Source: Crocinitomix sp. | GTDB lineage: Bacteria; Bacteroidota; Bacteroidia; Flavobacteriales_D; Crocinitomicaceae | Reading direction: 5' to 3' | Assembly: GCA_013138735.1 (NCBI GenBank) | Contig: WTCE01000089.1 | Coordinates: 1 to 64,000 of the forward strand | DNA length: 64,000 nt | In this document: positions 554 to 19,985 of the stretch, one piece after another | How positions within the stretch are numbered: the first letter of the stretch is position 1 | Layout of the letters: the number at the start of each line of letters is the position of its first letter | The notes under the pieces: generated by a model | Seen by the model: only the letters and a program-made list of their open reading frames with translations | What the model was told of the DNA's origin: nothing | Databases searched by the model: none | Position numbers and translations under genes: made by a program

Positions 554-2197
554 TTAAAATGAATGCGTCATAGTAAAGCTTAAGCCATTTGTCGCAGGAA
601 CTGGTCTACATACGCCGCCCACACAAACAATACCGGCTCTTTGTTTCCCATATGAAAAGATAAACCGTGTTTGATGATGAATATAGCCAAATGATCCTAG
701 CAAATAATGCAATTGAAGTGCGCTATCCGGATGTCCGTAATTATATTGGTCTTGCACCGCAAAGAACCATTTTGGCGATATGGTATATTCTAATAAAGCC
801 GCCGCCCAATTTCCACGATCTTGTTCTGTAAACAAAGCTTGCAACTCACCTCTAATTGAATGTTTGCGGCCAATTTTATAGGATAACTCAAACACGCCAA
901 CTTGAGCCTCAATATATCCTTTTGCAAGCAAGGTAACAGGGTTTACTGTATTATTGAATATGAAATTATAATAATGCAAACTGGCCTTCCATTTTTTACT
1001 AAATTTTCGGGAAATATGCATGTTAAAATCAAAATTGTATAAACTATCATTCCCATCAAAAGGTCTTCCAACATAAGTGATTCCATCTACCGAAGGATTC
1101 GTCCCCGTCTTGTGTCGCATATGGTCGGTTGCAACGGATACATTCAGATGTAATTTTGTACCATATTTCCCGCCCAATTTAGTTTTTTTCTTAATCTTAT
1201 ATAAAACGTCTAATTGATAAGCAACCTCTCCTGCGGGATTTGCTGCGTAAGGATAAAGTGTGCCTGCCAAATTGTATGTATGGTTATTTGTTGTAGCAGG
1301 CAAGAAATTAGTTGTTAATTGGTTTCCGAGTACATTCTTATCTGATCTAAATTGAAAATTATCAAAGGAACGGCCAGTTAAAATGATCCCTAATCCTTTT
1401 TGAGAATACCCAAGGTTAACAACCGCACCATGTCCGGGATTATAAACGAACCCACTTTGTAAAGAAGGATCACTGGTTTTATAACCATATTCGGCACCCA
1501 ATGTAAAACGTTTATAGCGCATATCAATTCTACCAGCATATATGTTTACAATAGGCGGAGTGGTGTCATTCACACTTTGAAATCTACTGACAAAACTTCC
1601 ACCAACTGTCACCTTAAACTTAGAATCGCTAAAGCGAGGAATTAATTCGTTCAAATTAAGATCTCCATCTACTCCTCTAATAATACCTTTTGATTTTTCT
1701 ACAACACCCGCCTCAAATCTAAATCGTTGCCGTCCCATTATAGCTTTCAGTTCAACTCCGCGCCGAGGAATAAACTTTATGCTTACCCCATCAAAGGCGT
1801 TGTCAATTCCCAAGGCGCTATTCTCATATGCACGCAAGGCAATACCATTACCAAATTGCTCATAGAAATTACCCACTTTTATGTTCAGTTGTTCTCCAGC
1901 ATATTCTGCATAACGATAACCAAGCCCAGTTCCATTATAAAAGACAGGATATCCAGCAATGGCTGGTAAATAGCTTTCAAGTCTAACCCCGGCTCTGAAT
2001 TTACCGAAAGATCCATTAATGTTCATAACAGTATTCATCACGGCCTTTTCCGTGGGAGCAAAGGCGCCTATTAAGGTGTCTTCATTGAGCACCTGCATAT
2101 TGGTTTCAATGTTCCCACTAATACTCGCTTTCGAGTTGTTTTGGGCGCTTACCGAAAAAGTAATTAAAGTAATAATTCCTAGGATGAGTTTTTTCAT
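554..2197 (-). CDS. DUF6029 family secreted/outer-membrane protein (copy 2)
   Basis: A 547-residue protein with a typical signal peptide ending in SVSAQ. The mature chain alternates aromatic and polar residues in short strands, as in outer-membrane beta-barrels, and ends in Phe, as many barrels do. It matches what I know of the DUF6029 family, whose function is unknown. It is a paralogue of the protein at 3476-5125: they share long identical stretches such as SYLPAIAGYP, GNFYEQFG and VGGVCRPVPATNGL. The only cysteines I find are C525 and C530 in the CVGGVC motif, in the penultimate strand region. It lies 343 bases downstream of the Omp28 lipoprotein gene, so it may be the last gene of that operon or have its own promoter. 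Barrel topology and any redox role are inference. Confidence 0.8.
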   Translation of the reverse strand: MKKLILGIITLITFSVSAQNNSKASISGNIETNMQVLNEDTLIGAFAPTEKAVMNTVMNINGSFGKFRAGVRLESYLPAIAGYPVFYNGTGLGYRYAEYAGEQLNIKVGNFYEQFGNGIALRAYENSALGIDNAFDGVSIKFIPRRGVELKAIMGRQRFRFEAGVVEKSKGIIRGVDGDLNLNELIPRFSDSKFKVTVGGSFVSRFQSVNDTTPPIVNIYAGRIDMRYKRFTLGAEYGYKTSDPSLQSGFVYNPGHGAVVNLGYSQKGLGIILTGRSFDNFQFRSDKNVLGNQLTTNFLPATTNNHTYNLAGTLYPYAANPAGEVAYQLDVLYKIKKKTKLGGKYGTKLHLNVSVATDHMRHKTGTNPSVDGITYVGRPFDGNDSLYNFDFNMHISRKFSKKWKASLHYYNFIFNNTVNPVTLLAKGYIEAQVGVFELSYKIGRKHSIRGELQALFTEQDRGNWAAALLEYTISPKWFFAVQDQYNYGHPDSALQLHYLLGSFGYIHHQTRFIFSYGKQRAGIVCVGGVCRPVPATNGLSFTMTHSF

Positions 2198-2540
2198 GGT
2201 AACTGTTTGAATTGTAAACTACAATGTAATATTATCTCAGCAATCAAGGGCGATTATTGAAATTAAAAAAACGACTAGAATGTAAGTCCTATTATAAGTA
2301 AACGCTGGATAACTGCATTAGCAACGCACTAGATTAGCCATTATCTGTGTTAGACTAGGTGCGATTCAGCTAGAATTATGTTGTTTTTGATTGCCCTCAG
2401 GCCTAAAAAATCAGTGGAAATCTGCTCTTCCGATAGCGATCGGAGCCCTGTCTCTGCGTGCCATTAATTGAGCGTTGTAAAGTTCCGTTAATGTCTGATA
2501 AGAGTGTGTTTTAGTTCGTCTAATAATTTAACACTAAAGA
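2198..2540. other. Intergenic region without a gene
   Basis: No open frame with coding character is visible in these 343 bases. They hold a perfect inverted repeat, TCCGAT-AGCG-ATCGGA, at 2429-2444, and a CTAAAGA heptamer at 2534-2540 abutting the Omp28 stop codon. No clear TAnnTTTG element is present on the minus strand ahead of the gene ending at 2197. Confidence 0.5.
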
Positions 2541-3458
2541 CTAAAACTCGTGCTTAATTACCTGTTCAATTTCGTAAGTATCACGATTGAAAACAACAAC
2601 TAAAAAGTGCATGTCCTCATTCGTAAAGCCGCCTGGTAACTCATAAGAGAAATCTGTCGAAATTTTTGTGCCTGCTGGTGTAATATCAGCTGCAATTCCA
2701 CGTCCCCATGCTTCTTCAAAAACATTTCCAATATGAATGTCATGATGAACGTAGGTTTCATTTGTAGTTGCATCTGGCATTTTTTGAGGAGAAACAAATG
2801 TATTCTCTAGGGCATAAACTACTATATTATAATTTCCTTCAAGCTCATTAATAATATCAGTTTCAACATGCAAGAATACACCGGAAGTTTCTGGATAATA
2901 ATTAGATTTTGCTTGAATGTTAACATTCAACGTTGAGGCTAAAACCTCATCTGTTTTATCAGCCCATTCTGCTATTGGTAAAAAGTAAAATCCGTCATCT
3001 CTTGGCACACGGTTTACGTTTCCTCTTGGATTCCCGCTAAAACCAACACCTAAACTAAAGAATTCAGCAGACATTTCTAGCCCTTGTGGATTCGTGAAAT
3101 CTCTGGGGAAATCTTCGTTCACTGCTTGAAATACTCCAGACCCGCCTGGCTCTGGTGAACCATGGATTGTCGCTACAAAAACACGGTCCGGGTTTTCGTC
3201 AGCAAGTGCCTCTGCTGCTGTTGCCGCTGGAGGACAAAACGGACATTGGTGTCCTGTATAATCCGCAATAACAGCATTTCTAAAAGTATTTGTGTTTTCC
3301 TCAAATGTTGGATATTCATAATCAATGAAATTACCAGGAAAGAAGTTTGTATCTAAATCCGTAATAATCACATTTGGAAAAACTACTTTGTCGCAAGCAG
3401 TTGTGAATGCAACTCCAGCAAGCAGTAAAAGGCCTAAAAGTTTAATGTAAATCTTCAT
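2541..3458 (-). CDS. Omp28-related outer-membrane lipoprotein with CPFC thioredoxin-like motif
   Basis: A 305-residue lipoprotein: the hydrophobic signal ends in a lipobox-like TTAC with Cys22 as the lipidation site. Residues about 60-150 carry the Omp28 thioredoxin-like region with C72-P-F-C75 after ADYTGHQ; the rest is beta-rich. These are the only cysteines after the lipid Cys. Omp28-type proteins are outer-membrane proteins of Bacteroidota with no settled biochemical role; the CxxC implies thiol-disulfide chemistry or tethering. The start lies 17 bases downstream of the DUF6029 stop at 3476, so the two are co-transcribed. No T9SS sorting domain is present, unlike the Omp28 protein at 5943-7808. 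Confidence 0.8.
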   Translation of the reverse strand: MKIYIKLLGLLLLAGVAFTTACDKVVFPNVIITDLDTNFFPGNFIDYEYPTFEENTNTFRNAVIADYTGHQCPFCPPAATAAEALADENPDRVFVATIHGSPEPGGSGVFQAVNEDFPRDFTNPQGLEMSAEFFSLGVGFSGNPRGNVNRVPRDDGFYFLPIAEWADKTDEVLASTLNVNIQAKSNYYPETSGVFLHVETDIINELEGNYNIVVYALENTFVSPQKMPDATTNETYVHHDIHIGNVFEEAWGRGIAADITPAGTKISTDFSYELPGGFTNEDMHFLVVVFNRDTYEIEQVIKHEF

Positions 3459-3475
3459 ATCAATAAAATTTTATT

Positions 3476-5125
3476 TTAAAACGATTGTGTAAACGTAAAT
3501 GTTAAACCATTTGTCGCCGGAACTGGTCGACAAACACCACCTACGCATAAAATACCTTCTCTTTGTTTACCGTACATAAACATAAAACGGGAACTATTAT
3601 GTGTGTAACCAAAAGCACCCAATAAATAATGAATTTGTAATCTTTCATCAGGATGTCCGTAATTATATTGATCCATAATGGTGAAAAACCATTTTGGAGA
3701 AATAGTATATTCAATTACTGCAGTTGCCCAATTTCCTCGATCCTTTTCAGTAAATAGCCCTTGAAATTCTGCTCTAATAGAATGTTTTCTGTTGATTTTA
3801 TAAGAAACATCAACAACACCAATGTCAGAAGTGATATAATGTTTGGCTAATTTAGTAACCTCATTGACATCATTATTATAGATGAAATGATAATAATGAG
3901 CACTAGCTTTCCACTTCTTATTTAATTTACGTTTAACATGTAAGTTGAAATCAAAGTTGAAAATACTATCTGTCATTGCAAACGGTTGAGCGATATAAGA
4001 AACTCTATTCTTTTCCCAATTCGCCGCTTCAGTATCACGCTCATAGTCTGTAGCTACGGATACATTTAAGTGTACGTCAGTTCCATATTTACCGCCCAAT
4101 GTACTTTTCTTTGGAATCTTATATAAAATATCTAATTGATATGCTACTTCACCATTTAAGTTGGTTGCATACGGATAAAGTGTTCCTGCTAAATTATAGG
4201 TGTGATTGTTACTGGTTGCTGGCAAATAATTAATAAATGCTTGGTTTCCAATTGTATTTCTATCCGATCGAAAAGTCATATTATCAAGCGACTTGGCCGT
4301 TAAAATAATACCGAGTCCTTTTTGAGAATAGCCCATGTTTACAATTGCGCCATGGCCAGTATTGTAAATCCAGTTATTTTGCTCGTTTGGATCATTGTCC
4401 TTGTGGATGTATTCGGCGTTTAAATAGAAACGTGAATACCTCATATCAATCCGTCCGCCATAAGAACCAACATTCTTAGGAAGAATTAGCGTATCGTTAT
4501 TTGTCGCTTGGTAACGACTGACAATACTACTACCTATAGATATTTTAAATTTAGAATCACTAAAACCAGGAATAACTTCATTCAGGTTTATACTTCCGTC
4601 AAGACCTCTTACCAAACCTTCTGATAAAAAACGTTGTCCTTCAAAAAAGTTGACGCGTTGCCTTCCAATTACACCTTTAAGATCTATACCTTTTAATGGA
4701 GAAAAACGAATGCTCGCTCCTTCCATGGCGTTGTCTAATCCTAACGCACGCTCTTCATAAGATCTAAAGATAAGACCACTCCCAAATTGTTCATAGAAAT
4801 TTCCAGCAGTCACCGTAATTTGGTTTCCTGCATACTGCACGTATTTGTAAGGCATTCCACTTCCAGAGTAAAAAGCCGGGTATCCTGCAATAGCTGGTAA
4901 ATAACTCTCAAAACGTGCACCCGCTCTAAACTTACCAACCGAATAATTAATATTCATGTAAGTATTTGCAACCACCTTTTGATCCGGAGCAGTTGCTCCA
5001 ATTAAAGTGTCCGTGTTTAAATATTGCACGTTCGATTCCATATTACCGGTAACTGTGCCGCCTTGTAATTGTCCATAAGAACAAAAAGAGGCGATACCGA
5101 AGAATCCCAAGATGATTTTTTTCAT
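3476..5125 (-). CDS. DUF6029 family secreted/outer-membrane protein (copy 1)
   Basis: A 549-residue protein with signal peptide (cleavage near CSYGQ). The mature part is a predicted all-beta chain rich in Tyr/Phe strands, again ending in Phe. It is a paralogue of 554-2197, with collinear motifs along the full length. Mature cysteines are limited to C527 and C532 in CVGGVC. It sits between the TlpA-like gene (54-base gap upstream) and the Omp28 lipoprotein (17-base gap downstream), which suggests one operon read from the promoter near 5756-5786. The role is unknown; a barrel that displays or passes a disulfide to the CxxC neighbours is a hypothesis. Confidence 0.82.
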   Translation of the reverse strand: MKKIILGFFGIASFCSYGQLQGGTVTGNMESNVQYLNTDTLIGATAPDQKVVANTYMNINYSVGKFRAGARFESYLPAIAGYPAFYSGSGMPYKYVQYAGNQITVTAGNFYEQFGSGLIFRSYEERALGLDNAMEGASIRFSPLKGIDLKGVIGRQRVNFFEGQRFLSEGLVRGLDGSINLNEVIPGFSDSKFKISIGSSIVSRYQATNNDTLILPKNVGSYGGRIDMRYSRFYLNAEYIHKDNDPNEQNNWIYNTGHGAIVNMGYSQKGLGIILTAKSLDNMTFRSDRNTIGNQAFINYLPATSNNHTYNLAGTLYPYATNLNGEVAYQLDILYKIPKKSTLGGKYGTDVHLNVSVATDYERDTEAANWEKNRVSYIAQPFAMTDSIFNFDFNLHVKRKLNKKWKASAHYYHFIYNNDVNEVTKLAKHYITSDIGVVDVSYKINRKHSIRAEFQGLFTEKDRGNWATAVIEYTISPKWFFTIMDQYNYGHPDERLQIHYLLGAFGYTHNSSRFMFMYGKQREGILCVGGVCRPVPATNGLTFTFTQSF

Positions 5126-5179
5126 TTAGCTTGAATTAGACTTAAAAAGTGATTTTGGTTTTTGGTGGGGTGGTTTTAC

Positions 5180-5701
5180 TTATTCAGGCTCATACCCAAG
5201 TACGTCATATAAATCTTCCTCATCTCCAGGTACAAAACCTACGTGAGAGTATATGATTTTACCATTCCCATCAAGAACAAATGTTTGGGGGGGATAATTC
5301 ACACCCATGGCTCTTTTTAAATCGCTATTTGTATCTAACCAGATATCGTAATCCCAACCTTCAGCATCAACAACTGGTCTAACTTTACTTTTATTACGTT
5401 CATCATCAATTGATACAGCAACCAATTTTATACCTAAACCTAGGCTATCGTTCATTGCTTCATATTCTTCCATGATTGTATTCAACTCTAATCGACAAGG
5501 TTTACACCAAGTTGCCCAGAAAGAAATAACTATTGGATTCCCACCATTCTCTAGATCAGCTGAGTTAATCTGATCGCCATCTAAATTTTCAAGCATAACC
5601 GACGGCATAGTTTTTCCAACACCACCATCATCAGTATTGATAAATGATGATCCTCCAATTACTCCAATTGCCAGTGCGAATAGTAAACTTATTTTTTTCA
5701 T
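5180..5701 (-). CDS. TlpA-like periplasmic thiol-disulfide oxidoreductase
   Basis: A 173-residue exported thioredoxin-fold protein. A hydrophobic N-terminal segment (residues 5-20) serves as signal or anchor. The active site is W65-C66-K67-P68-C69 in FWATWCKPC, and the cis-proline loop is PPQT near residue 138, with FVLD following. These are the only two cysteines. TlpA/ResA proteins reduce or isomerise disulfides in the periplasm, for instance in cytochrome maturation or in reducing surface proteins. The start is placed at the ATG before KKISLL because it begins a normal signal sequence; an in-frame ATG 27 bases upstream would add nine polar residues. It is first gene of the run TlpA-DUF6029-Omp28, with a promoter-like TTG-N20-TATTTTTG upstream. 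Confidence 0.85.
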   Translation of the reverse strand: MKKISLLFALAIGVIGGSSFINTDDGGVGKTMPSVMLENLDGDQINSADLENGGNPIVISFWATWCKPCRLELNTIMEEYEAMNDSLGLGIKLVAVSIDDERNKSKVRPVVDAEGWDYDIWLDTNSDLKRAMGVNYPPQTFVLDGNGKIIYSHVGFVPGDEEDLYDVLGYEPE

Positions 5702-5755
5702 AGTTGTATTTTTCCTTATGTAATTCAAATATCAGACCAAACTGATATATAGAAT

Positions 5756-5786
5756 CAAAAATAGGGATTAATTCTCCGTACTGCAA
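5756..5786 (-). promoter_or_regulatory. Promoter of the TlpA-DUF6029-Omp28 operon
   Basis: On the minus strand a TTG (5784-5786) is separated by 20 bases from TATTTTTG (5756-5763). This matches the Bacteroidota -33/-7 pattern (TTG and TAnnTTTG). It lies about 55 bases upstream of the chosen start of the thioredoxin gene. Confidence 0.55.
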
Positions 5787-5890
5787 CTCTTTAATTCGTT
5801 TATTGTTGATTTCCCAAGAACAATAAGTGCAGCTATTTGTACCCCCTGTATATATTGGGCTGGGATCAAAAAGAAGAAATTATAGGGCAT

Positions 5891-5921
5891 AAAAAAAGCC
5901 CTGACGATAAATGTCAGGGCC
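5891..5921 (-). terminator. Rho-independent terminator of the T9SS Omp28 gene
   Basis: A perfect 8-bp stem (5898-5905 with 5913-5920) and 7-nt loop are followed on the minus strand by seven T residues (5891-5897). It lies just after the stop at 5943. Confidence 0.9.
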
Positions 5922-5942
5922 TTAGCTTTATAATATAAGTTC

Positions 5943-7808
5943 TTATTGAACAGAAAGTTTTGCAGTTTGAACAGTATTGTTCACTACAGTTCTTACAGTA
6001 TACATTCCTGCAGAGAAAGCAGAAACATCAACTGAATAAATGTAATCACCTGAAGTTAAGTTTTGCGTGTTTTTGCTATAAACTAATTCTCCTAAAGCAT
6101 TGTAAATTTCAACATTCACATCCGAAGTTTCGATTAAACTTACTTTAACATAAGTTAATGCGTTTGACGGGTTAGGGAATACAGAAAGTTCAAATCCTGC
6201 TTCGATTTCTTCAATCGCGTCGAATCCGAAAGCAGATTGTCCAGCGTTTAAGATTTCACCAGTTGATCCATCAACTAACATTCCTACAAAGTGTAAGTGG
6301 TTTAATTCCCATTCTGCACCTTTAGCAATAGTATATGTATATGACTCTGAAGAACCAGCATCAATAGTAGCAGGTAGAGAACCAGCATCACCTAAGATTT
6401 CGTTATTTCCTAAAGCTCTTGCAACGTGATCATAAACCATGTCAGCAGCAGGAACTGGATCAGCTAAATCTTCATATCCGCCCATGTCACCAGCACCACC
6501 ACCTGAGTAGTAATTTGCTTGGTTATAACCAGAAGCTGTTCCTGTTACTTCATTTTCAGTAACAACAGCAGCTAATCTATAATCTCCAGATAAAGCACCA
6601 ACAAAGTCAGCAGTAACTGTTACCTCAATATTTGCTCCAACTTCTTCGTAAGTTACACTTACAGATGCCGGTGGAATGTGAGACGAACGCTCAGCATACA
6701 TTGTAGGGAAGTTCGAAGGATCACCAGGGATCACTCGGTCAACACCACCACCAGGATAACCACCAGGTACATATGTGTTAATTCCGGTATCATAAGCAGC
6801 AACAGTCATTGGATCTCCATTATGTACAGCAATTCCAATCCATAATGGTTCGCTTTCCATACCTTCTAATGCAACAGCTCCTCTTGGACACCATCCACAC
6901 CATGTTCCAGTTTTCTCTTCACCAACGACATATTTTGTTGGAATCTCAGCAACACAAGAAACAATATGATCGATACAATCATTTGTAGCATCACCGTCTG
7001 AAGCTAAATCAACACAAACTTCCATATCATAAGCAGTGCCACTTGTAGCACTTAATGAAGTAGGGTGTGAAAATGTATAAACCTCACCAGAAGCAATTGT
7101 TGCAGTGATCGTTTCGTTATGAGAAGTTCCATCATTCCAATCTAAATCGAAAGAAGTAATTTCATTTGCTCCGTTATTTTGAACAGTACCTGTAATTGCT
7201 ACAGTACCTTCTTCAACAACAGCAGCAGTAGTTACTGATACCATTTTAAGATCCCAATCTAATAATGTACGAACAACTACGTCGTCAATATTGAAACGGA
7301 ATTGATCAGAACAATCATGGTGTCTAAATGCAATATAAACATCAGATTCACCAGAAAGCGCAGATACGTCCAATGAACGCAATACATATTCACCGCCAGT
7401 TGCGCCAATAGTTTCGCTAAACGAGTATGGCGAAGCCATTAAATCGGCTATAGCGCCACTTGTTCCAGCGTAAGCTGAGTAAACTTCAGCATCCCAATCC
7501 GGATCTTGTGCTTTAGCAACCCATTGTAACATTACAGTTCCAGTTGCTCCTGACATATCAAAAGGTCCAGCAACCATCCAGTTGTCTGGAGTTAAAACCC
7601 CTTCTCCTGAATCCCATGATGCTGAAGTAGCAACATTTCCTTGTCCATCTCCAGATGCATAGTCAACAGCTTCCCAATCAAATCCGTCGCCATCAGAATC
7701 TGTCATTGTCCAAGCTCCTGCTCCTCCCGAGAAATCATCCTCGAAATAAGTTTGTGCGTAAGCTCCAGTTGCCATAAGTGCCAATACTGGAATAAGTAAT
7801 TTTTTCAT
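5943..7808 (-). CDS. T9SS type A cargo: choice-of-anchor/Omp28 thioredoxin-like surface protein
   Basis: A 621-residue exported protein. Signal peptide (ends GAYAQ), then a jelly-roll-like domain of the cleaved-adhesin/choice-of-anchor J kind (about residues 20-185, FEDDFSGGAGAWT start), a CARDB/Ig-like domain (about 190-285), an Omp28-like domain with CGWC near residue 303 (GTWCGWCPRG), and a C-terminal type A sorting domain (about 545-621, FELSVFPNPSN...). The last domain directs export through SprA and removal by the sortase. It is oriented like the TlpA/DUF6029 genes but separated from them by a terminator, so it is a separate transcript. The shared CxxC theme ties it to the neighbouring Omp28 lipoprotein. 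Confidence 0.85.
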   Translation of the reverse strand: MKKLLIPVLALMATGAYAQTYFEDDFSGGAGAWTMTDSDGDGFDWEAVDYASGDGQGNVATSASWDSGEGVLTPDNWMVAGPFDMSGATGTVMLQWVAKAQDPDWDAEVYSAYAGTSGAIADLMASPYSFSETIGATGGEYVLRSLDVSALSGESDVYIAFRHHDCSDQFRFNIDDVVVRTLLDWDLKMVSVTTAAVVEEGTVAITGTVQNNGANEITSFDLDWNDGTSHNETITATIASGEVYTFSHPTSLSATSGTAYDMEVCVDLASDGDATNDCIDHIVSCVAEIPTKYVVGEEKTGTWCGWCPRGAVALEGMESEPLWIGIAVHNGDPMTVAAYDTGINTYVPGGYPGGGVDRVIPGDPSNFPTMYAERSSHIPPASVSVTYEEVGANIEVTVTADFVGALSGDYRLAAVVTENEVTGTASGYNQANYYSGGGAGDMGGYEDLADPVPAADMVYDHVARALGNNEILGDAGSLPATIDAGSSESYTYTIAKGAEWELNHLHFVGMLVDGSTGEILNAGQSAFGFDAIEEIEAGFELSVFPNPSNALTYVKVSLIETSDVNVEIYNALGELVYSKNTQNLTSGDYIYSVDVSAFSAGMYTVRTVVNNTVQTAKLSVQ

Positions 7809-7974: not shown

Positions 7975-7992
7975 AAATTATAAATGAATGTT

Positions 7993-8724
7993 ATGAAAAA
8001 AATTATTACTTGTGTGGGATTATTCGCAATTACGTTGAGCGCTAGTGCTCAAGGAATTGAGATATATTATCCTGATGGAGATGAAGTTATTTCGGGTACT
8101 GTAGTAGAGTTAAATTCAGGTGATGATAGTATGCATCAAGAGTTTGATGTTAAAAATACTTCTGGAGCTACGCTTAATTTAAGAATAGAACGAATTAAGA
8201 TTACTGAGTTAGAAGGAACACAGGATTATTTATGTTGGGGAGCAAATCCTGAAACAGGAGCGTGTTATTCGGCTGGAGCAGTTTCTCCTGAGAATCCATT
8301 CATCACACCAGATGCAAGTGATCTTGAAGACGGTGGTAGAGGTTGGTTAGCAACATACCATGTAACAAATGGTATTGACGGTTGTGCGCAATACCGTTAT
8401 TATGTGATTGATGATTCAGATATCCGTTTAGATTCAGTTGACGTTTTATATTGTTCGACTGTAAGTATTAAAGAGGATCTAAAAGTTACTGTTTCTGTTT
8501 ATCCAAATCCAGCATCTAATTTTGTAAATGTTGTAATGGAGAATGAGCATAACAATGTTGATTTTACATTGTATAACATTTTGGGCGAAGCAGTTGTTAC
8601 AGCTAAATTGAATGCAGGGACAAATGAAGTAGCGCTGAATAAATTACCGAATGGTGTTTATTTCTACTCAATATTAAAAGAAGGAAATATCTTAGAAACA
8701 AAGAAATTAATTGTGAGACACTAG
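7993..8724 (+). CDS. Small T9SS type A sorting-domain protein
   Basis: A 243-residue secreted protein. Signal peptide (KKIITCVGLFAITLSASAQ), a beta-rich central domain (about 20-155) with six cysteines that could pair, and a C-terminal type A sorting domain starting at VSVYPNPASNF. The central domain resembles the short Ig-like cargo domains seen beside Omp28 proteins but I cannot assign it to a named family. I chose the second ATG because the first lies too close to the -7 element. It is divergent from the T9SS Omp28 gene with a 184-base shared upstream region, and is followed by its own terminator. Function unknown. Confidence 0.8.
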   Translation: MKKIITCVGLFAITLSASAQGIEIYYPDGDEVISGTVVELNSGDDSMHQEFDVKNTSGATLNLRIERIKITELEGTQDYLCWGANPETGACYSAGAVSPENPFITPDASDLEDGGRGWLATYHVTNGIDGCAQYRYYVIDDSDIRLDSVDVLYCSTVSIKEDLKVTVSVYPNPASNFVNVVMENEHNNVDFTLYNILGEAVVTAKLNAGTNEVALNKLPNGVYFYSILKEGNILETKKLIVRH

Positions 8725-12584: not shown

Positions 12585-15500
12585 ATGAAAAGAAGTTTTT
12601 TAATATTATTTACATTGAGTTGTGCACTGAATCTCCTAGCAAATAGCGAGAATATTGGTGACGGTGTACTCACTTACGAGATAGCGACAGATTCACCAAA
12701 AGTGGATATGCCTTTCCCTATTTACGACTATCAAGATTATACGGATCGTAGGAATTCTATGATTGATCTAAAGGATCCGGCAAACTTGAATACGGACATT
12801 GTCTATAATCCTGAAACAGGGACTTATGAAATTGTACAGAAGATTGGAAACCAATATTACAGGTATCCAACTTCAATGACACAGGCGGAATACATAGAAT
12901 ATCAAAGAAAAAAGGCAGAAAAAGAAGTTTGGCTAGAAAAAGTTGATGCAACAAATGATAATGCACGTGGCGTAATTCCTCCATTAAAAGTGGGAGGAGA
13001 AGCCTTTGATGTGATTTTTGGTGGAGATGAAATTAATATTCGTCCGCAAGGGTCAGCAGAACTTTCTTTTGGGGTGAATGTTTCGCGATATGATAATCCT
13101 GCATTACCTGAACGCCAAAGAAGAGTTGCAACATTTGACTTTCAACAACAAATTCAGTTAAATATGGTGGGGCAAATTGGTGATAAACTGAAATTAACCA
13201 TTAGCCAAAATACTGAAGCAACATTCAATTTCCAAAATCAGGTTAAAATTGAATATACTGGTTATGAAGATGAGATTATTCAAAAAATTCAAGCGGGTAA
13301 CGTTAGTCTGCCTTTAAACACAACGCTAATTCAAGGTTCTCAAAGTTTATTCGGTATTCGAACAGATTTAAAATTTGGTGCTTTAACCGTTCAAACAATT
13401 CTATCCCAACAAAAAGGTAAACGCCAAGAAATTAATGTTGCTGGTGGTGCTCAAGTTCAAGATTACGAAGTGCGCGTAGATAACTACGAAGCCAATAAAC
13501 ACTATTTCTTAAACTATTATCACCGCGAGCATTATGATGAGGCCATGCAAACCATGCCCATTGTAAATTCTCCTATTAACGTAACGAAGATTGAGGTTTG
13601 GGTTACAAACCGAATTAACCGAGTGGAGGACACACGTAATGTAATTGCCTTTACCGATTTAGGAGAAGGGGATGTAGAGAATTTACAGGGTGGACCAACA
13701 ACCATAGGTGATGATTTACCAAGAAATGGTGCGAATAATTTATATGCTGAATTAAAATCAAATCCGGCCATTCGTGGTTTTTCAACTGCAGTAAGTGCTC
13801 TTTCGGTAATAGGGGGTAGTCCTGGGCCATTTGCACAATCAGTGCATTATGAAAAAGTTGAGAATTCTCGAAGATTGAGTGAGCAAGAGTATACTTATAA
13901 TGCACAATTAGGTTTCGTATCATTAAAATCTCCATTGAATCAAGATGAGGTTTTGGGGGTTGCTTATCAATACACAGTTAATGGTAGAACATTCCAAGTG
14001 GGTGAATTTTCAACTGATGTTCCAGTAGAAGAAGGATCTAAAAGTGCTTTAATCTTAAAACTATTGAAACCAACCATTATCAATCCTAAAAACAAAACAT
14101 GGGATTTGATGATGAAAAACGTTTATTCGATTGGCGCTTATCAAGTAAGCCCAGGTGACTTTACATTTGATGTTTGGTACAACAATCCATTAACAAGTGT
14201 AAACGTTAACTATTTACCTTATGCAGGCGTAGATGATATTCTTCTAATGCAACAGTTAGATTTAGATCGTTTAAACCTGAATCAAGATTTGTATTCTGAT
14301 GGACGTTTTGATTTTGTAGCTATCCGCTATGAGGGGAATCGCGCAATAAATGGAGGTACAGTAGACCCAAGAACAGGACGTGTATACTTTACCACAATTG
14401 AGCCGTTTGGTCAAACCTTAAGAGGTAAGCTAGAAGGTGTGTCAGAGCCTCTTGCACCAATTCAAATTGATGGAATCGTTTTTGACGAATTGTATGATTC
14501 AACTAAAACAGCCGCACAGCAAATACCGAGTAAAAACAGGTATAGTATTAAAGGAAGTTATAAATCATCTGTAAGTTCTGAGATTTCGTTAAACTCTTTA
14601 AACATTCCTGAAGGAAGTGTAACGGTTACAGCCGGAGGAGCGAAACTACAAGAAGGAGTAGATTATACGGTAGATTATAATTTAGGCCGCGTAAAAATTC
14701 TAAATCAAGGAATTCTAGAGTCGCAAACGCCAATTAAAGTTCAATTGGAAAGTAATTCATTATTTGGATTCCAATCAAAATCACTTGTTGGAGCGCACTT
14801 TAATTACGAAATTAATAAAGACTTTAATATTGGTGCTACCATCATGAACTTGACGGAAAAACCATTAACACAAAAGGTGAACATTGGTGATGAACCAATT
14901 AGCAATTCAGTAGTCGGAACAGATATTAGCTATCGTACAGATGCTCCTTTTTTAACCAAATTAGTTGACTTTTTACCAATAATCAGTACAAAAGAAAAAT
15001 CAACCATTACCGCTTATGGTGAATTTGCTTACCTCATTCCAGGAACGCAACGTGCCATTAGTAAAGAAGGGATTTCATATATAGATGGTTTTGAAGGAAG
15101 TCAAAGTGCGATTGATATTAAACAATTTCAAACGTGGCGATTGGCTTCAATACCTCAAGGGCAAACGGATTTATTTCCAGAAGCTTCAATCAAAACAGGA
15201 ACAGCAGCTGGGTTCAATCGTTCGCACTTATCATGGTATCAAGTTGATCCGTCTACCTTCTATCAAAACTCAAGCACTACGCCAGATCATATCAAGGATA
15301 ATGCTGCGATTTTAGAGAATTCTCAACAGCACCAATTGGAGCAAAATGACCTTTTCCCTCAATCCAATCCACCGCAAGGAACATTAAATAACATTCCGGT
15401 ACTTGATTTAGCTTATTACCCGCAAGAAAGAGGGCCTTATAATTACGACACATCTAATACGAATGTTTTAACTGATGGTTCATTTTCAAATCCTGAAGAT

Positions 15501-18500
15501 CGTTGGGCAGGGATTATGCGTGCATTAACAACTACAAATTTTGAAACGGCAAACGTACAATTCATTCAGTTCTGGTTATTGGATCCTTTTAATGATGATG
15601 CAACAGATTCTGGAGCAGTCAATTTATCTGGTGGAGACCTTTACTTTAACCTTGGAAATATCTCGGAAGATGTATTGCCAGATTCTAGAAAAAGTTTTGA
15701 AAATGGTTTACCAACAGGTCCAACAGTTGCCGATCCGAGTGATTTTGATACAACGGCATGGTCTGTCGTATCTAATGAACAAGTTATTGTAAATGCTTTT
15801 GATAATAACTCTTCATCAAGAATATATCAAGATGTGGGCTTAGATGGATTTAGTGATGCTGGTGAGGTTAGTTATTTCACGAAATTCATTGATTGGGTTG
15901 GTTCAAGCACTATGACGGGTGATGCAAAAGGCAAATTATTGAATGATCCATCATCAGATAATTATAATTATTACCGAGATGACGATTCAGATGCAGCACT
16001 GCATGATATTGTACGACGATATAAGTATTATAACGGAACTGAAGGAAATTCAGCGACTCCTGATGTCTCTAACACCTTAAATGCTGATGGTTACCCAACA
16101 AGAGGAACACAAACACCAGATATTGAAGATTTAAATCAAGATAATAACTTGAGTGAATCAGAAAGCTATTTCCAATACCGTGTAAGTTTACGTCCATCTG
16201 ATTTGCAAGTGGGACAAAACTTTGTGACCAACAAGCAAGAGGTTGTAATAAATGACGTTACTGGTAAAAAAGAAGATTGGTATCAATTTAAAATTCCAAT
16301 CGAAAATCCAGAATCAATTATTAACGGAATTTCAGATTTTAGATCTATCCGTTTCATGCGTATGTTCATGAATAATTTTGATCATGAAGTGGTATTGCGA
16401 TTTGCAAAATTAGAGTTAATTCGTGGTGAGTGGAGAAAGTACTTATTCAATTTAAATGAGCCAGGTGAAGTTATTCAGGATGATCCAAATTCAACTGAAT
16501 TTAATTTAGCTGCGGTTAACTTAGAGGAAAACGAAGGTAAATTCCCAGTAGCATACGTTATTCCTCCAGGAATTATACGTGAGCAAGACAATGGATCAAT
16601 CAACTTAAGACAATTGAACGAGCAAGCATTATCAATGGAGATTTGCGGCTTAAAAGATGGAGAAGCACGCGCTTCCTATAAAAACGTTCAATTTGATGTC
16701 AGGTCCTATAAAAAGCTAAAAATGTTTGTCCACGGCGAACAACAATATAGGACAGGCTGGGCTACTGATGATTTAAAGGATGATCAATTAACAGTTTTCA
16801 TTCGTTTGGGGACAGACTTTGAAGACAATTACTACGAATTTGAGATGCCTTTAAAAGTGACCGATTACGACCCGGTAACGGGCTTGGCTTCAACAGCAAC
16901 AGGTGCGGCAGATTTGATATGGCCTGAGGCAAATAATATGGAAATTGTGTTTGATTCTTTACTCAATTTGAAGATTAGAAGAAACGATACTAATATACCT
17001 ACGACAATTGAATATATTCAAAATTTATTACCAGATGAATTTGGTGTAGTACGACGTATAAAAGTAAAAGGTAATCCGAACTTACAAGGAATGAAAACCA
17101 TTATGATTGGGGTTCGTAATCCAGGAAAAGATACCGGTCACCCTTGGCAATTGAATGAGGATGGTATGGATAAATGTGCTGAGGTTTGGGTGAACGAATT
17201 GCGCTTAACAGATTTCGATCAAAAGGGAGGTTGGGCTTCAACTGCACGAGTAAATGTGCAAATGGCTGATTTTGCCAGTGTTAATCTATCTGGTAATTAT
17301 TCAACTCCAGGATGGGGAAGTATTGAAAAGAAAGTAAGTGAAAGACAGCGTGATACGCAAATGGGCTTTGATGTTTCGTCTAATATGGAACTGGGTCAGT
17401 TTTTCGGACGTAAAATGAACTTACAAATTCCATTTTATATTGGATATTCTGCCAGTATTATTGAACCAGAATTTGACCTTTTGGCACCTGATATTAGACT
17501 GAAAAGCTATTCAGACGAAGAGCGAAAGGAAAAAGCGAGATTTTCAAGGGATGCCGTTATAAGGCGATCATATAACTTCACCAATGTAAGGCGTGAACGA
17601 ACCGCTGGGAAAGAAATTCACTTCTGGGATATTGAAAACTGGTCGGCAAGTTATTCTTATAATGAGATTGAATTGCGCGATATTAATACAGACCATGATA
17701 TAACAAAGACATACCGTGGTGGATTAACCTATAACTATTCGAAAAAACCATTGCACATTGAACCATTCAAGAAAAGTAAATTCTTGAAAAAGTCAAAATG
17801 GTTTGGGTTAATCAAAGATTTCAATTTCTATATTGGTCCAAAATCGGTCGGGTTTAATACAGAACTTTCGCGCTTATATAACGAACGTGAAAACCGGAAC
17901 GCTTTGGATACAAATTTCCAATTCAAACCAACCTATCTGAAAAATTTCAATTGGACACGGAATTACGACTTGAAGTATGATATATCAAAAAACATCAAGT
18001 TTTCATTCTCTGCTTCAAACCGCTCAATTATTTTAGAACCAGAAGGGATTATTGACGGAAATGTAAGTGCAGATCAGAATTTAGAGACCTATAATAATTA
18101 TCAATTGTTCAAAACGAGTATTCGAAGCGCATTGGAGCCATTTGATGGAGATGATGTTAAGTTTGGAGGATTCGCACTTAATTACGGACATAATTATGAT
18201 ATCTCATACAAGATTCCTTTTGATAAATTACCACTCACCAATTGGATAACAGCCAATGTGAAAATGAGAAGTAGTTATGATTGGATGCGTGCGCCACTTT
18301 CATTACCTGAATTGGGTAATACGGTGCAAAATGCGAGAAACTTCACTGTTAACGGTCAGGTAAACATGGTCACACTTTATAATAAGGTTGGTCTTTTACG
18401 AAAAATCAATAACGACGGTAAAGGTGGACGTGGTGGACGTGGAGCTGCTCCGCAGCAAAATGGAGCAGACAAAGGTAAAGATAAGGAGAAGGACAAAAAA

Positions 18501-19985
18501 GATGGTGAGGAAGAGGGCAAAGACGGTGAAAAGGAAAAGAAAAAACGTGAAGGAGTTCATCCGATTGTAAAAACAACGGGTCGTTTAATCATGTCTTTTA
18601 GAAACCTATCTTTCTCTTATGCAGAAACGGACGGAATAATGCTTCCGGGCATGGCTGGTGATATAAGTCTTTTTGGTATGGATAATTTCAGCCAACCGGG
18701 ATTTGGCTTTGTATCAGGACAGCAAAACAGAGATTTATTAGGCCGGCCGACAAACGCTTGGGGTGATTATGATTCATTTGCGCCATTTGCCGCGAGTAAT
18801 GATTGGTTAGTAGATAATTCGAGTTTAAATATCTTACACACGAATTCGCATACACAATCAATGAATGCACGTGCTACGTTTGAGCCGTTTAAGGATTTGC
18901 GAATTAATGTAACGATTGATCGTAAGTTGACGGATAATGAGAACAGTTATTATCGCTTTAATGACACGCTACCTCCAGTACCTGGATATGAAGGTGATTG
19001 GGAATATCAAAACAGAATTAATAGTGGTTCTATTAGTTTCACAACAATTACGTGGAAAACAGCCTTCCAAAAATTAGATTCAACTTATGTTTCGGAGACG
19101 TTTCAAGAATTAAGGGGATATCGTCAAACAGTTTCAGCTCAATTAGGAGAAGAAAGTGGAACATCACTAGGCGAAGACGGTTACTATGCAGGTTTTGGTG
19201 AAAACCAACAAGATGTATTAATAGGATCATTCTTGGCGGCCTATACAGGGCAGGGAACAGGAACTAAATTCTTTGATGTATTCAAAGCGATTCCACTACC
19301 AAATTGGGACATTAGATATGACGGTTTAGCTAAAATGGACTTTATGAAAGACTATGTTAGAAATTTCTCTCTAACTCATGCTTATCGCTCTAATATTTCA
19401 CTTTCGAACTATCAAACTAACTTGGCAGCGTTTGATCAATTTGGCAATCAGCAATTGGATGCGTCCAATAACTTGATACCTGGCAAACAAATTCAGAGTG
19501 TAACCATTACTGAGCAATTTGCTCCGTTCATAGGGGTAGATGCAACTTGGATAGTCGGTGAAAACGGTTTAATTACCAAGTTTGAGTATAAACGAGATCG
19601 CTCATTAGCATTAAGTGTTACCAACCTTCAAATTACCGAAATGCGTGGTAGAGAATGGGTGATTGGAACAGGGTATAAATTCTCGGGAGTTAAATTACCA
19701 TTCCAAGTATTTGGTAAAACGCCTGAGAGTGATTTAAACATTCGATTTGATTTATCGATTAGAAGCAATATTGCATTGAACAGAAATATTATTGAAGACA
19801 GTGAACAAATTACTTCTGGTCAAGACATGTACTCGATTAAATCAAGAGTAGATTACAATATTGGGCCTAATCTGAATATAGCGCTTTACTTTGACCGTGT
19901 CGTCAACAAGCCGCAACTATCTACAGCCTTTAATACTGCTAACACAAGCGCAGGATTGGCTCTAAGATTTAACTTAGCACAATAA
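12585..19985 (+). CDS. sprA: T9SS outer-membrane translocon protein SprA (SOV)
   Basis: A 2466-residue protein with a signal peptide, the length and character of SprA, the giant beta-barrel that forms the type IX secretion channel and is needed for gliding-adhesin export. Recognisable pieces include the N-terminal region with PLKVGGEAFDVIFGGDEINI and QGSAELSFGVNVSRYDNP, repeated IRPQG/TISQNTEATFNFQNQ motifs, and the long beta-strand-rich body ending in a run of barrel strands and ALRFNLAQ. Residues about 1946-1990 form a Gly/Arg- then Lys/Glu/Asp-rich low-complexity insertion (18421-18552). The ATG at 12585 begins a good signal sequence, and AATATTTG just upstream is a near match to a -7 element. 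It ends 10 bases before the acetyltransferase gene. Confidence 0.96.
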   Translation: MKRSFLILFTLSCALNLLANSENIGDGVLTYEIATDSPKVDMPFPIYDYQDYTDRRNSMIDLKDPANLNTDIVYNPETGTYEIVQKIGNQYYRYPTSMTQAEYIEYQRKKAEKEVWLEKVDATNDNARGVIPPLKVGGEAFDVIFGGDEINIRPQGSAELSFGVNVSRYDNPALPERQRRVATFDFQQQIQLNMVGQIGDKLKLTISQNTEATFNFQNQVKIEYTGYEDEIIQKIQAGNVSLPLNTTLIQGSQSLFGIRTDLKFGALTVQTILSQQKGKRQEINVAGGAQVQDYEVRVDNYEANKHYFLNYYHREHYDEAMQTMPIVNSPINVTKIEVWVTNRINRVEDTRNVIAFTDLGEGDVENLQGGPTTIGDDLPRNGANNLYAELKSNPAIRGFSTAVSALSVIGGSPGPFAQSVHYEKVENSRRLSEQEYTYNAQLGFVSLKSPLNQDEVLGVAYQYTVNGRTFQVGEFSTDVPVEEGSKSALILKLLKPTIINPKNKTWDLMMKNVYSIGAYQVSPGDFTFDVWYNNPLTSVNVNYLPYAGVDDILLMQQLDLDRLNLNQDLYSDGRFDFVAIRYEGNRAINGGTVDPRTGRVYFTTIEPFGQTLRGKLEGVSEPLAPIQIDGIVFDELYDSTKTAAQQIPSKNRYSIKGSYKSSVSSEISLNSLNIPEGSVTVTAGGAKLQEGVDYTVDYNLGRVKILNQGILESQTPIKVQLESNSLFGFQSKSLVGAHFNYEINKDFNIGATIMNLTEKPLTQKVNIGDEPISNSVVGTDISYRTDAPFLTKLVDFLPIISTKEKSTITAYGEFAYLIPGTQRAISKEGISYIDGFEGSQSAIDIKQFQTWRLASIPQGQTDLFPEASIKTGTAAGFNRSHLSWYQVDPSTFYQNSSTTPDHIKDNAAILENSQQHQLEQNDLFPQSNPPQGTLNNIPVLDLAYYPQERGPYNYDTSNTNVLTDGSFSNPEDRWAGIMRALTTTNFETANVQFIQFWLLDPFNDDATDSGAVNLSGGDLYFNLGNISEDVLPDSRKSFENGLPTGPTVADPSDFDTTAWSVVSNEQVIVNAFDNNSSSRIYQDVGLDGFSDAGEVSYFTKFIDWVGSSTMTGDAKGKLLNDPSSDNYNYYRDDDSDAALHDIVRRYKYYNGTEGNSATPDVSNTLNADGYPTRGTQTPDIEDLNQDNNLSESESYFQYRVSLRPSDLQVGQNFVTNKQEVVINDVTGKKEDWYQFKIPIENPESIINGISDFRSIRFMRMFMNNFDHEVVLRFAKLELIRGEWRKYLFNLNEPGEVIQDDPNSTEFNLAAVNLEENEGKFPVAYVIPPGIIREQDNGSINLRQLNEQALSMEICGLKDGEARASYKNVQFDVRSYKKLKMFVHGEQQYRTGWATDDLKDDQLTVFIRLGTDFEDNYYEFEMPLKVTDYDPVTGLASTATGAADLIWPEANNMEIVFDSLLNLKIRRNDTNIPTTIEYIQNLLPDEFGVVRRIKVKGNPNLQGMKTIMIGVRNPGKDTGHPWQLNEDGMDKCAEVWVNELRLTDFDQKGGWASTARVNVQMADFASVNLSGNYSTPGWGSIEKKVSERQRDTQMGFDVSSNMELGQFFGRKMNLQIPFYIGYSASIIEPEFDLLAPDIRLKSYSDEERKEKARFSRDAVIRRSYNFTNVRRERTAGKEIHFWDIENWSASYSYNEIELRDINTDHDITKTYRGGLTYNYSKKPLHIEPFKKSKFLKKSKWFGLIKDFNFYIGPKSVGFNTELSRLYNERENRNALDTNFQFKPTYLKNFNWTRNYDLKYDISKNIKFSFSASNRSIILEPEGIIDGNVSADQNLETYNNYQLFKTSIRSALEPFDGDDVKFGGFALNYGHNYDISYKIPFDKLPLTNWITANVKMRSSYDWMRAPLSLPELGNTVQNARNFTVNGQVNMVTLYNKVGLLRKINNDGKGGRGGRGAAPQQNGADKGKDKEKDKKDGEEEGKDGEKEKKKREGVHPIVKTTGRLIMSFRNLSFSYAETDGIMLPGMAGDISLFGMDNFSQPGFGFVSGQQNRDLLGRPTNAWGDYDSFAPFAASNDWLVDNSSLNILHTNSHTQSMNARATFEPFKDLRINVTIDRKLTDNENSYYRFNDTLPPVPGYEGDWEYQNRINSGSISFTTITWKTAFQKLDSTYVSETFQELRGYRQTVSAQLGEESGTSLGEDGYYAGFGENQQDVLIGSFLAAYTGQGTGTKFFDVFKAIPLPNWDIRYDGLAKMDFMKDYVRNFSLTHAYRSNISLSNYQTNLAAFDQFGNQQLDASNNLIPGKQIQSVTITEQFAPFIGVDATWIVGENGLITKFEYKRDRSLALSVTNLQITEMRGREWVIGTGYKFSGVKLPFQVFGKTPESDLNIRFDLSIRSNIALNRNIIEDSEQITSGQDMYSIKSRVDYNIGPNLNIALYFDRVVNKPQLSTAFNTANTSAGLALRFNLAQ

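Follow-up and report, generated by a model that had tools for sequence, protein, structure and literature searches.

In many Bacteroidota, a conserved gene set appears to connect thiol (cysteine) chemistry inside the cell envelope to thioredoxin-like proteins on the cell surface, through a predicted outer-membrane barrel of unknown function, DUF6029. In our opinion, the best explanation of this gene set, to which we assign a probability of about 0.55, is a thiol-disulfide relay that carries reducing equivalents from the periplasm to surface thioredoxins, which would be an unfamiliar way of feeding redox power to the cell surface. The set was recognized in a 64,000-nucleotide stretch of Crocinitomix sp. 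(assembly GCA_013138735.1, contig WTCE01000089.1, positions 1 to 64,000), hereafter the window. The original prediction noted five co-directed genes for exported proteins, each with a cysteine pair, and proposed a disulfide or metal relay across the outer membrane. The observation proved correct. The interpretation is partly supported: that the proteins work together, which had been marked as inferred, is now well supported, whereas the passage of electrons or metal across the outer membrane remains an inference.

The gene set and its cysteines

The five genes and an associated divergent gene are listed in Table 1. Both DUF6029 proteins match the family profile at full length, with 565.6 and 587.4 bits against a curated cut-off of 27 bits. 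The Omp28 profile (cut-off 34.9 bits) matches the lipoprotein with 59.9 bits and the T9SS-tailed protein with 42.1 bits. The TlpA-like protein matches PF00578 with 72.8 bits, contains a WCxPC-type motif, and has an N-terminus that is hydrophobic by eye; NCBIfam ResA/DsbE models match it below their cut-offs. The C-terminal sorting domain of T9SS cargo is found in the 621-aa and 246-aa proteins, from which their export is inferred.

Table 1. Coordinates in the window of the genes and cysteine motifs of the DUF6029 locus
Position	Strand	Feature	Basis
554..2197	-	DUF6029 predicted outer-membrane barrel, copy a (547 aa), paralogue, 63% identical to copy b	PF19494, E 1.4e-169
608..625	-	CVGGVC of copy a, residues 525-530	sequence
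2541..3458	-	Omp28 lipoprotein, predicted thioredoxin-like domain plus Ig-like domain (305 aa)	PF11551, E 3.7e-16; model pLDDT 92.1
3234..3245	-	CPFC of the lipoprotein, residues 72-75	both Cys invariant in alignments of 41 and of 61 Omp28 proteins
3476..5125	-	DUF6029 predicted outer-membrane barrel, copy b (549 aa)	PF19494, E 3.5e-176; AlphaFold2 model pLDDT 93.8
3530..3547	-	CVGGVC hairpin of copy b, residues 527-532, predicted in the last extracellular loop	sequence and model
5180..5701	-	TlpA/ResA-like periplasmic thioredoxin-fold protein (173 aa)	AhpC-TSA/Redoxin; AhpC-TSA E 3.1e-20
5495..5506	-	CKPC of TlpA, residues 66-69	sequence
5943..7808	-	Omp28-family protein with N-terminal Cleaved_Adhesin/choice-of-anchor J domain and C-terminal T9SS sorting tail (621 aa)	PF07675, PF11551, PF18962
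6888..6899	-	CGWC of the T9SS-tailed Omp28 protein, residues 304-307	sequence
7984..8724	+	Divergent T9SS-tailed protein (246 aa) with Cys pair C84, C94 (codons 8233-8265); probable associate	PF18962; weaker evidence, see text

The original prediction held that, apart from signal peptides and the lipid-anchor Cys, the first four of these proteins (TlpA, both DUF6029 proteins and the lipoprotein) have no cysteines other than the pair, and this is right. The only additional cysteines are residue 15 in the signal peptide of DUF6029 copy b and residue 22, the lipid anchor, of the lipoprotein; the T9SS-tailed Omp28 protein has six in total. Of 377 ORFs of 150-700 aa in 40 control regions, 7 have exactly two cysteines (after residue 25) spaced as CxxC or CX4C, compared with four of the five genes here; it should be noted that these four are not independent, since the two DUF6029 proteins are paralogues and TlpA is a thioredoxin relative.

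The original prediction left out the divergent 246-aa T9SS-tailed gene, which is a frequent neighbour. Its relatives occur in 66 of 155 DUF6029 stretches examined (80 of which come from a biased set described below) and in 0 of 40 controls, and C84 and C94 are invariant among 44 sequences. We first took this gene as part of the module; however, at E <= 1e-6 its family is present in 44 DUF6029+ genomes and also in 9 of 216 DUF6029- genomes, and all nine of the latter that were read keep a Cys pair. For this reason, it is listed only as an associate. Weaker matches (about 1e-5 to 1e-3) cover mostly the signal-peptide end and were ignored.

Conservation of the module across Bacteroidota

Two conditions set beforehand as able to refute the hypothesis, namely a lack of conservation of the CX4C cysteines and the absence of any neighbourhood or phylogenetic link between DUF6029 and CxxC proteins, were examined, and neither was observed. 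The CX4C is present in 73 of 73 full-length DUF6029 proteins found by a whole-family profile search of the phylum; this count leaves out loci L071 (a hit below the cut-off, a different protein), L097 (a broken frame with an ambiguous base), and L098 (truncated). A TlpA-like gene is present in 66 and Omp28 in 52 of 74 DUF6029 loci (window included, L071 excluded), and either is present in 72 of 74, against 1 of 40 each in control regions. These are six-frame counts; a greedy choice of ORFs, in which antisense ORFs hid some genes, gave 62 and 51. The control positions were chosen by us, one per genome, in 40 of the DUF6029+ genomes, and six of the 80 DUF6029+ genomes (G046, G054, G127, G163, G175, G262) were not retrieved. 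The gap between the TlpA and DUF6029 genes has a median of 3 bp over 54 pairs. The link is not universal: 8 of the 74 loci show no TlpA-like gene (one of them, L040, is cut by a contig end) and 22 show no Omp28, of which 14 are in genomes with no PF11551 match and 8 are in genomes with a match elsewhere.

A second set of 80 named loci, the best 80 of at least 590, is biased toward TlpA-adjacent loci, because the query was the TlpA-DUF6029 fusion described below and one pattern contained the CX4C. This set was not used for adjacency or cysteine-conservation rates, but only for names, alignments A2 and A3 (the latter of 41 Omp28 lipoproteins), the models, part of alignment A4, and clusters of neighbouring genes; some of its members repeat loci of the first set (L154 is the contig of L080). 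Named genomes with TlpA-DUF6029-Omp28 loci include Mucilaginibacter gilvus, Hymenobacter duratus, Mesonia oceanica, and Phocaeicola coprocola, a gut species.

Omp28 also tracks DUF6029 across genomes. Among 296 genomes, 58 have both, 4 have Omp28 only, 22 have DUF6029 only, and 212 have neither; among 150 genomes of one genus, counting matches over the cut-off, the corresponding numbers are 45, 1, 3, and 101. The coupling extends to unlinked copies: 72 Omp28 matches located more than 20 kb from DUF6029 or on another contig lie in 33 DUF6029+ genomes, compared with 2 matches in 216 DUF6029- genomes. Linked copies could, however, be gained and lost as one island, the unlinked class includes other contigs of draft genomes, and the Fisher tests applied to these counts ignore phylogeny. 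Omp28 without DUF6029 was seen in one genome of the phylum (G156) with clear CxxC proteins, together with three weak matches below the cut-off, and, in the genus, in one MAG (85% complete), together with five matches below the cut-off.

Two further observations link the proteins. In two genomes of one genus, TlpA and DUF6029 are fused in frame into one protein that lacks the barrel's own signal peptide. In a lineage without Omp28, two other, non-homologous thioredoxin-fold proteins with the same two anchor types are found instead: 11 of 11 scanned downstream proteins (10 from family f23, leaving out those of loci L102 and L103, and one from f29) have a redoxin/AhpC-TSA domain plus a T9SS tail, and 10 of 12 f23 loci have a second, CPHC/CTHC protein with a lipobox-like signal. 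The view that these are merely common Bacteroidota genes lying together by chance or by shared placement near T9SS genes could be entertained because TlpA-like proteins and T9SS cargo are common in the phylum, and an sprA gene lies about 5 kb away in the window; nevertheless, this view is very unlikely, being contradicted by the controls, the fusion, and the genus-level coupling.

Predicted structure of the DUF6029 barrel

A confident AlphaFold2 model makes DUF6029 a 24-strand barrel with the CX4C in its last extracellular loop, i.e., on the extracellular side rather than within the membrane, where the original prediction had placed it. The CX4C sits in a tight hairpin (E524-528, G529G530, E531-535), and conserved charged residues, such as E73, R225, E238, R451, and E472, are assigned to the lumen. 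These features leave room for a different reading, in which DUF6029 is a transporter or porin whose extracellular loop is stapled by the CX4C disulfide, TlpA helps to fold it in the periplasm, and Omp28 proteins are partners or maintenance oxidoreductases of the barrel, with no electrons flowing through it. The hairpin is suited to a structural disulfide, and the lumenal charges suggest a transported substrate. Moreover, one paper, found in a literature search on DUF6029, reports HHpred similarity between DUF6029 and plug-less Wzi-like barrel homologues near OPX genes and ascribes to them a potential role in polysaccharide secretion (PMC9603273). That proposal concerns 18-stranded porins, whereas here 24 strands are predicted and the recurrent neighbours are thiol proteins; no OPX gene was recognized by inspection among the 22 largest clusters of neighbouring genes. 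This reading, which we consider possible but unlikely, explains neither why unlinked Omp28 copies, many with a T9SS tail, occur almost only in DUF6029+ genomes, nor why a lineage without Omp28 has other thioredoxin-fold proteins with the same anchor types in the same place.

The top rows of the structural comparison are pilus usher pores, which are 24-strand pores: FimD (3ohn; Z 18.3, rmsd 4.3, 371 residues, 9% identity) and PapC (2vqi; Z 17.5), at 9-10% identity. OccK porins follow closely (Z 17.1, rmsd 6.5), and no chaperone-usher gene context was seen, so the resemblance may reflect barrel size or strand number only. This size class, and the position of the gene beside that of the lipoprotein, allow the suggestion that DUF6029 is the pore that brings Omp28 lipoproteins to the surface, with TlpA keeping the cargo cysteines reduced during passage. 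We regard this as improbable: 24 of 61 Omp28 proteins carry a T9SS tail and should use T9SS instead, yet the Omp28 copies of the genome as a whole follow DUF6029. MtrB of the MtrCAB outer-membrane electron conduit (6r2q) is row 19 of the Foldseek barrel matches, a general match. MtrCAB likewise combines a periplasmic redox protein, a large barrel, and a surface lipoprotein, but no CXXCH heme motif was found by eye in any of the five proteins. A PDB sequence search with the profile of alignment A1 gave only chance-level hits.

Omp28 proteins and HBP35

The model of the Omp28 lipoprotein matches HBP35 of Porphyromonas gingivalis (5y1a; Z 23.5, rmsd 2.6, 222 residues), with the same two-domain fold and a CxxC, although identity is 17% over the aligned part. 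Recombinant HBP35 has cysteine-dependent thioredoxin activity, and a form of the protein is on the cell surface (PMC2907840); HBP35 is reportedly dependent on T9SS (Por) (PMC3120885). A thioredoxin (4knd) was matched at a weak Z of 6.1 over residues 60-173, and a PDB sequence search with the lipoprotein returned one thioredoxin at E 0.044. In the alignment of 61 Omp28 proteins (A5, from which one fragment cut by the end of locus L038 was left out), the two CxxC cysteines are the only invariant columns, and P144, in the usual cis-Pro position, is conserved at 90% or more.

A metal relay, in which the CxxC and CX4C pairs carry Cu(I) or another soft metal, or help take heme, across the outer membrane in a Sco/TlpA-like manner, is not excluded but is less favoured than thiol redox, and we consider it unlikely. 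Paired cysteines can bind Cu(I), an invariant His (H99) accompanies the CxxC in the 41 Omp28 lipoproteins of A3, and HBP35 binds hemin (PMC2907840). However, H99 is not among the columns conserved at 90% or more in the 61 more diverse Omp28 proteins, which weakens the case for an invariant-His, Sco-like metal site; hemin binding by HBP35 does not need its two active-site cysteines (PMC2907840); the replacement proteins belong to the redoxin/AhpC-TSA family; and P144 and the CxxC are thioredoxin-type features.

A possible thiol relay to the cell surface

In the model we favour, TlpA, presumably recharged from the inner membrane, would dock at or inside the periplasmic mouth of the barrel and pass electrons, directly through the wide lumen or by a small thiol shuttle, to the CX4C hairpin. 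The hairpin would then keep surface thioredoxin-fold proteins reduced, i.e., the Omp28 lipoprotein, the T9SS-tailed Omp28 proteins or, in one lineage, CPHC lipoprotein/T9SS pairs, which would act as surface disulfide reductases or isomerases. By the predicted topology the CX4C is extracellular; therefore, direct contact with TlpA would require TlpA to enter the barrel. The analysis establishes the conserved module and its cysteines, the lipobox and T9SS-tail anchors in sequence, the fusion, and the phyletic dependence, while the barrel topology and the thioredoxin fold are predictions. The reductase activity and recharging of TlpA, the surface exposure of the lipoproteins, electron transfer, the route through the barrel, and the reductive direction, which is assumed because TlpA/ResA proteins normally reduce, are inferred.

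Relays from DsbD/CcdA to TlpA/ResA/DsbC are likewise reductive thiol-disulfide cascades through a membrane to thioredoxin-fold proteins, but these cross the inner membrane with helical carriers, whereas here a β-barrel with an extracellular CX4C would cross the outer membrane. Within the open-access literature searched, no description of the present module was found: searches combining Omp28 with TlpA in Bacteroidetes, with Bacteroidota, or with selenoproteins, and searches combining type IX secretion with disulfides and TlpA, or P. gingivalis with VKOR, disulfides, and type IX secretion, returned nothing; papers on Omp28 mostly concern Brucella; and a paper found by searching for surface thiols and TlpA in Bacteroidetes (PMC10434189) is not on this module.

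A surface thioredoxin such as HBP35 needs something to re-reduce it, and to our knowledge no route has been described; the Discussion of PMC2907840 names none for the surface form. The module offers a concrete, testable answer and gives DUF6029 a functional hypothesis. In its furthest form, which we consider about as likely as not, DUF6029 would be the first outer-membrane thiol conduit, a barrel with a TlpA protein at (in one genus covalently at) its periplasmic mouth that feeds reducing power to the whole set of surface thioredoxins of the Omp28/HBP35 type, including those encoded elsewhere in the genome. If true, this would be a kind of redox traffic across the bacterial outer membrane other than cytochrome conduits and soluble shuttles.

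Composition of the locus

Five of the features listed below lie on the minus strand, where they are given in order of transcription from the T9SS-tailed Omp28-family protein to DUF6029 copy a. In its own genome DUF6029 is found only at this locus, in two copies, and two of the five Omp28 matches of that genome are located here. The original prediction, that each of the five neighboring genes carries a cysteine pair and that all of them except the T9SS-tailed protein have no cysteines besides those of the pair, the lipid anchor and the signal peptides, proved exact.

Coordinates of the features of the locus and of one protein from another locus
Feature	Coordinates	Strand	Remarks
Omp28-family protein	7808-5943	minus	T9SS tail
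TlpA	5701-5180	minus	
DUF6029 copy b	5125-3476	minus	
Omp28 lipoprotein	3458-2541	minus	CPFC at residues 72-75; Pfam Omp28 match at residues 139-302
DUF6029 copy a	2197-554	minus	
Divergent T9SS-tailed protein	7984-8724		Cys pair
sprA-type gene	12585-19985		PF14349, 2466 aa; T9SS/gliding translocon
Redoxin protein of locus L065, in a lineage without Omp28	L065:4609-5406		thioredoxin fold, T9SS tail, CPHC

The divergent T9SS-tailed protein is a recurrent neighbor of DUF6029 loci, but it is also found in some genomes without DUF6029. In an alignment of 44 relatives its only invariant columns are a Cys pair, the spacing of which is mostly 3-4 and up to 11. The sprA-type gene lies about 5 kb from the module. 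Genes recognized by eye as ruvA, malic enzyme, and an sprA start also lie near DUF6029 in 14, 13, and 9 loci, respectively; it should be noted that most of these belong to a set of 80 named loci that is biased by the way in which it was selected. Two MAG contigs of that set, titled Chryseobacterium gleum (L154) and Sphingomonadales bacterium (L166), have near-identical gene orders; as L154 appears to correspond to L080, a locus from a genome of the window's own family, these record titles look doubtful.

Conservation of the cysteines and of the neighborhood

A whole-family profile search found DUF6029 in 80 of 296 Bacteroidota genomes at E <= 0.001, 78 of which were over the cut-off. From 73 of these genomes 74 stretches were retrieved, and the window was added. 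After the exclusion of one false hit (locus L071) and of two broken or truncated genes (L097 and L098), 73 of 73 DUF6029 proteins, including the two of the window, carry the CX4C about 20 residues from the C-terminus. As several of these proteins have no other cysteine, these two are the only ones common to all. In a further alignment of 82 sequences, C527, G529, G530, and C532 are invariant; however, 80 of those sequences had been partly selected by a pattern containing the motif.

A six-frame recount identified a TlpA-like gene in 66 of 74 loci (64 within 500 bp), Omp28 in 52 of 74 (38 within 500 bp), and one or the other in 72 of 74, the window being one of the 74. In 40 stretches of 14 kb taken elsewhere in genomes with DUF6029, each is present in 1. 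Where TlpA is immediately upstream on the same strand (54 loci), the median gap is 3 bp, and many pairs overlap by 4 bp.

In one genome (G292, locus L079), TlpA and DUF6029 form a single 667-aa protein, with the redoxin match at 22-152 and DUF6029 at 158-667, and without a signal peptide before the barrel part, whereas relatives with separate genes have one there, as judged by eye. A search of 147 genomes of that family found one more long frame, in the same genus (genome G459), which reads as the same fusion (an ORF of 678 aa from its first possible start). The fusion is therefore known from two genomes of one genus; none of the other 74 stretches of the first set or of the 80 named loci shows it. 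A TlpA domain at the N-terminus of a barrel that, as predicted, starts in the periplasm must sit at, or inside, the periplasmic mouth.

Phyletic coupling of Omp28 and DUF6029

In the same 296 genomes Omp28 is found in 62. Of these, 58 also have DUF6029 and 4 do not (three of them with weak matches, below the cut-off), while 22 genomes have DUF6029 only and 212 have neither (Fisher 4e-38, phylogeny not corrected). In 150 genomes of one genus, counting Omp28 over its cut-off, 45 have both, 1 has Omp28 only (a MAG 85% complete), 3 have DUF6029 only, and 101 have neither; five matches below the cut-off, all in genomes without DUF6029, are left out of this count. Linked genes can travel together, and for this reason unlinked copies matter more. 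Of 132 Omp28 matches over the cut-off in the phylum sample, 58 lie within 20 kb of DUF6029, 72 lie farther away or on other contigs in 33 genomes with DUF6029, and only 2 lie in the 216 genomes without it. Both of the latter are in genome G156 (L235, L236), which has CxxC Omp28 proteins but in which no DUF6029 was found, representing either a real exception or an assembly gap.

Replacement of Omp28 by other thioredoxin-fold proteins

The DUF6029-containing genomes of one family (f23) have no PF11551 match. In the 12 loci of this family that have a DUF6029 gene, TlpA is upstream in all 12, and downstream lie other thioredoxin-fold proteins, mostly CPHC. One of these proteins has a lipobox-like signal in 10 of 12 loci, as detected with a loose pattern. 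The other has a redoxin/AhpC-TSA domain plus a T9SS sorting tail in 11 of 11 scanned proteins, of which one (from locus L070) belongs to a different family, f29. The T9SS-tailed redoxins of the lineage without Omp28 represent a second, separate family of probable surface thiol proteins. Thus, the same two anchor types, lipoprotein and T9SS, recur with a different thiol protein family, which is, in our opinion, the most telling single result for a thiol function.

Predicted structures

The AlphaFold2 model of DUF6029 copy b has a mean pLDDT of 93.8 and a pTM of 0.88, and 24 membrane strands were read from its secondary structure. Loops after odd strands are 6-44 residues long and those after even strands 2-12, which places the N and C termini in the periplasm and the CX4C hairpin (524-528, turn 529-530, 531-535) in the last extracellular loop. 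C527 and C532 face each other across a two-residue turn, a geometry that, by inference, allows a cross-strand disulfide. Strand positions assigned to the lumen by hydrophobicity are more conserved than lipid-facing ones; lumen conservation is lowest at the periplasmic end, however, which does not speak for a tightly conserved TlpA docking site there. Usher pores head the structural comparison (FimD 3ohn, Z 18.3, rmsd 4.3, 371 residues, 9% identity), with OccK porins close behind, indicating a very wide barrel.

For the Omp28 lipoprotein the model pLDDT is 92.1, and the best structural match is HBP35 (Z 23.5, rmsd 2.6, 222 residues), followed by the Agrobacterium structure 2axo at Z 18.3 and then by a steep drop. 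HBP35 has cysteine-dependent thioredoxin activity in vitro and a form on the cell surface; its authors suggest a role in surface redox status but report no positive result for protection against oxidative stress (PMC2907840). In an alignment of 61 Omp28 proteins, 11 also match DUF1223 (PF06764), and, together with the 2axo match, this suggests that DUF1223, Omp28, and HBP35 may form one superfamily. The Pfam Omp28 model misses the thioredoxin-like part of the lipoprotein that contains the CPFC motif. A weak match of this protein to the NCBIfam "Omp28-related selenoprotein" model (24 bits, cut-off 200) hints at selenocysteine relatives.

Mechanistic interpretation

The original observation is real, and the evidence for it is stronger than could be known from the sequence alone. 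The accompanying proposal, that these proteins work together as a relay across the outer membrane, is supported in part: their working together is well supported, while the relay itself is inferred. What the analysis establishes is the conserved module, its cysteines, the anchors as seen in sequence, the fusion, and the phyletic dependence, while the barrel topology and the thioredoxin fold rest on prediction. Beyond this, it is inferred that the lipoprotein is at the surface, that TlpA hands electrons to the CX4C of the barrel through the lumen (or that a small thiol shuttle does so), and that the hairpin recharges surface thioredoxins. The reductive direction is likewise inferred, from the usual role of TlpA/ResA proteins. 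The main difficulty is the distance between TlpA and an extracellular hairpin; a lumen wide enough to admit a folded domain, as in ushers, and the fusion make such a transfer thinkable, but not proven.

The one paper found to mention DUF6029 suggests polysaccharide secretion on the basis of similarity (PMC9603273). This is not excluded, but it does not account for the thiol partners. No description of the module was found in the literature searched, and the relay is, in our opinion, its most likely reading, with a probability of about 0.55. Such a relay would work like a DsbD-type cascade in its chemistry, although in another membrane, and like MtrCAB in its architecture, although without the heme motifs of the latter.
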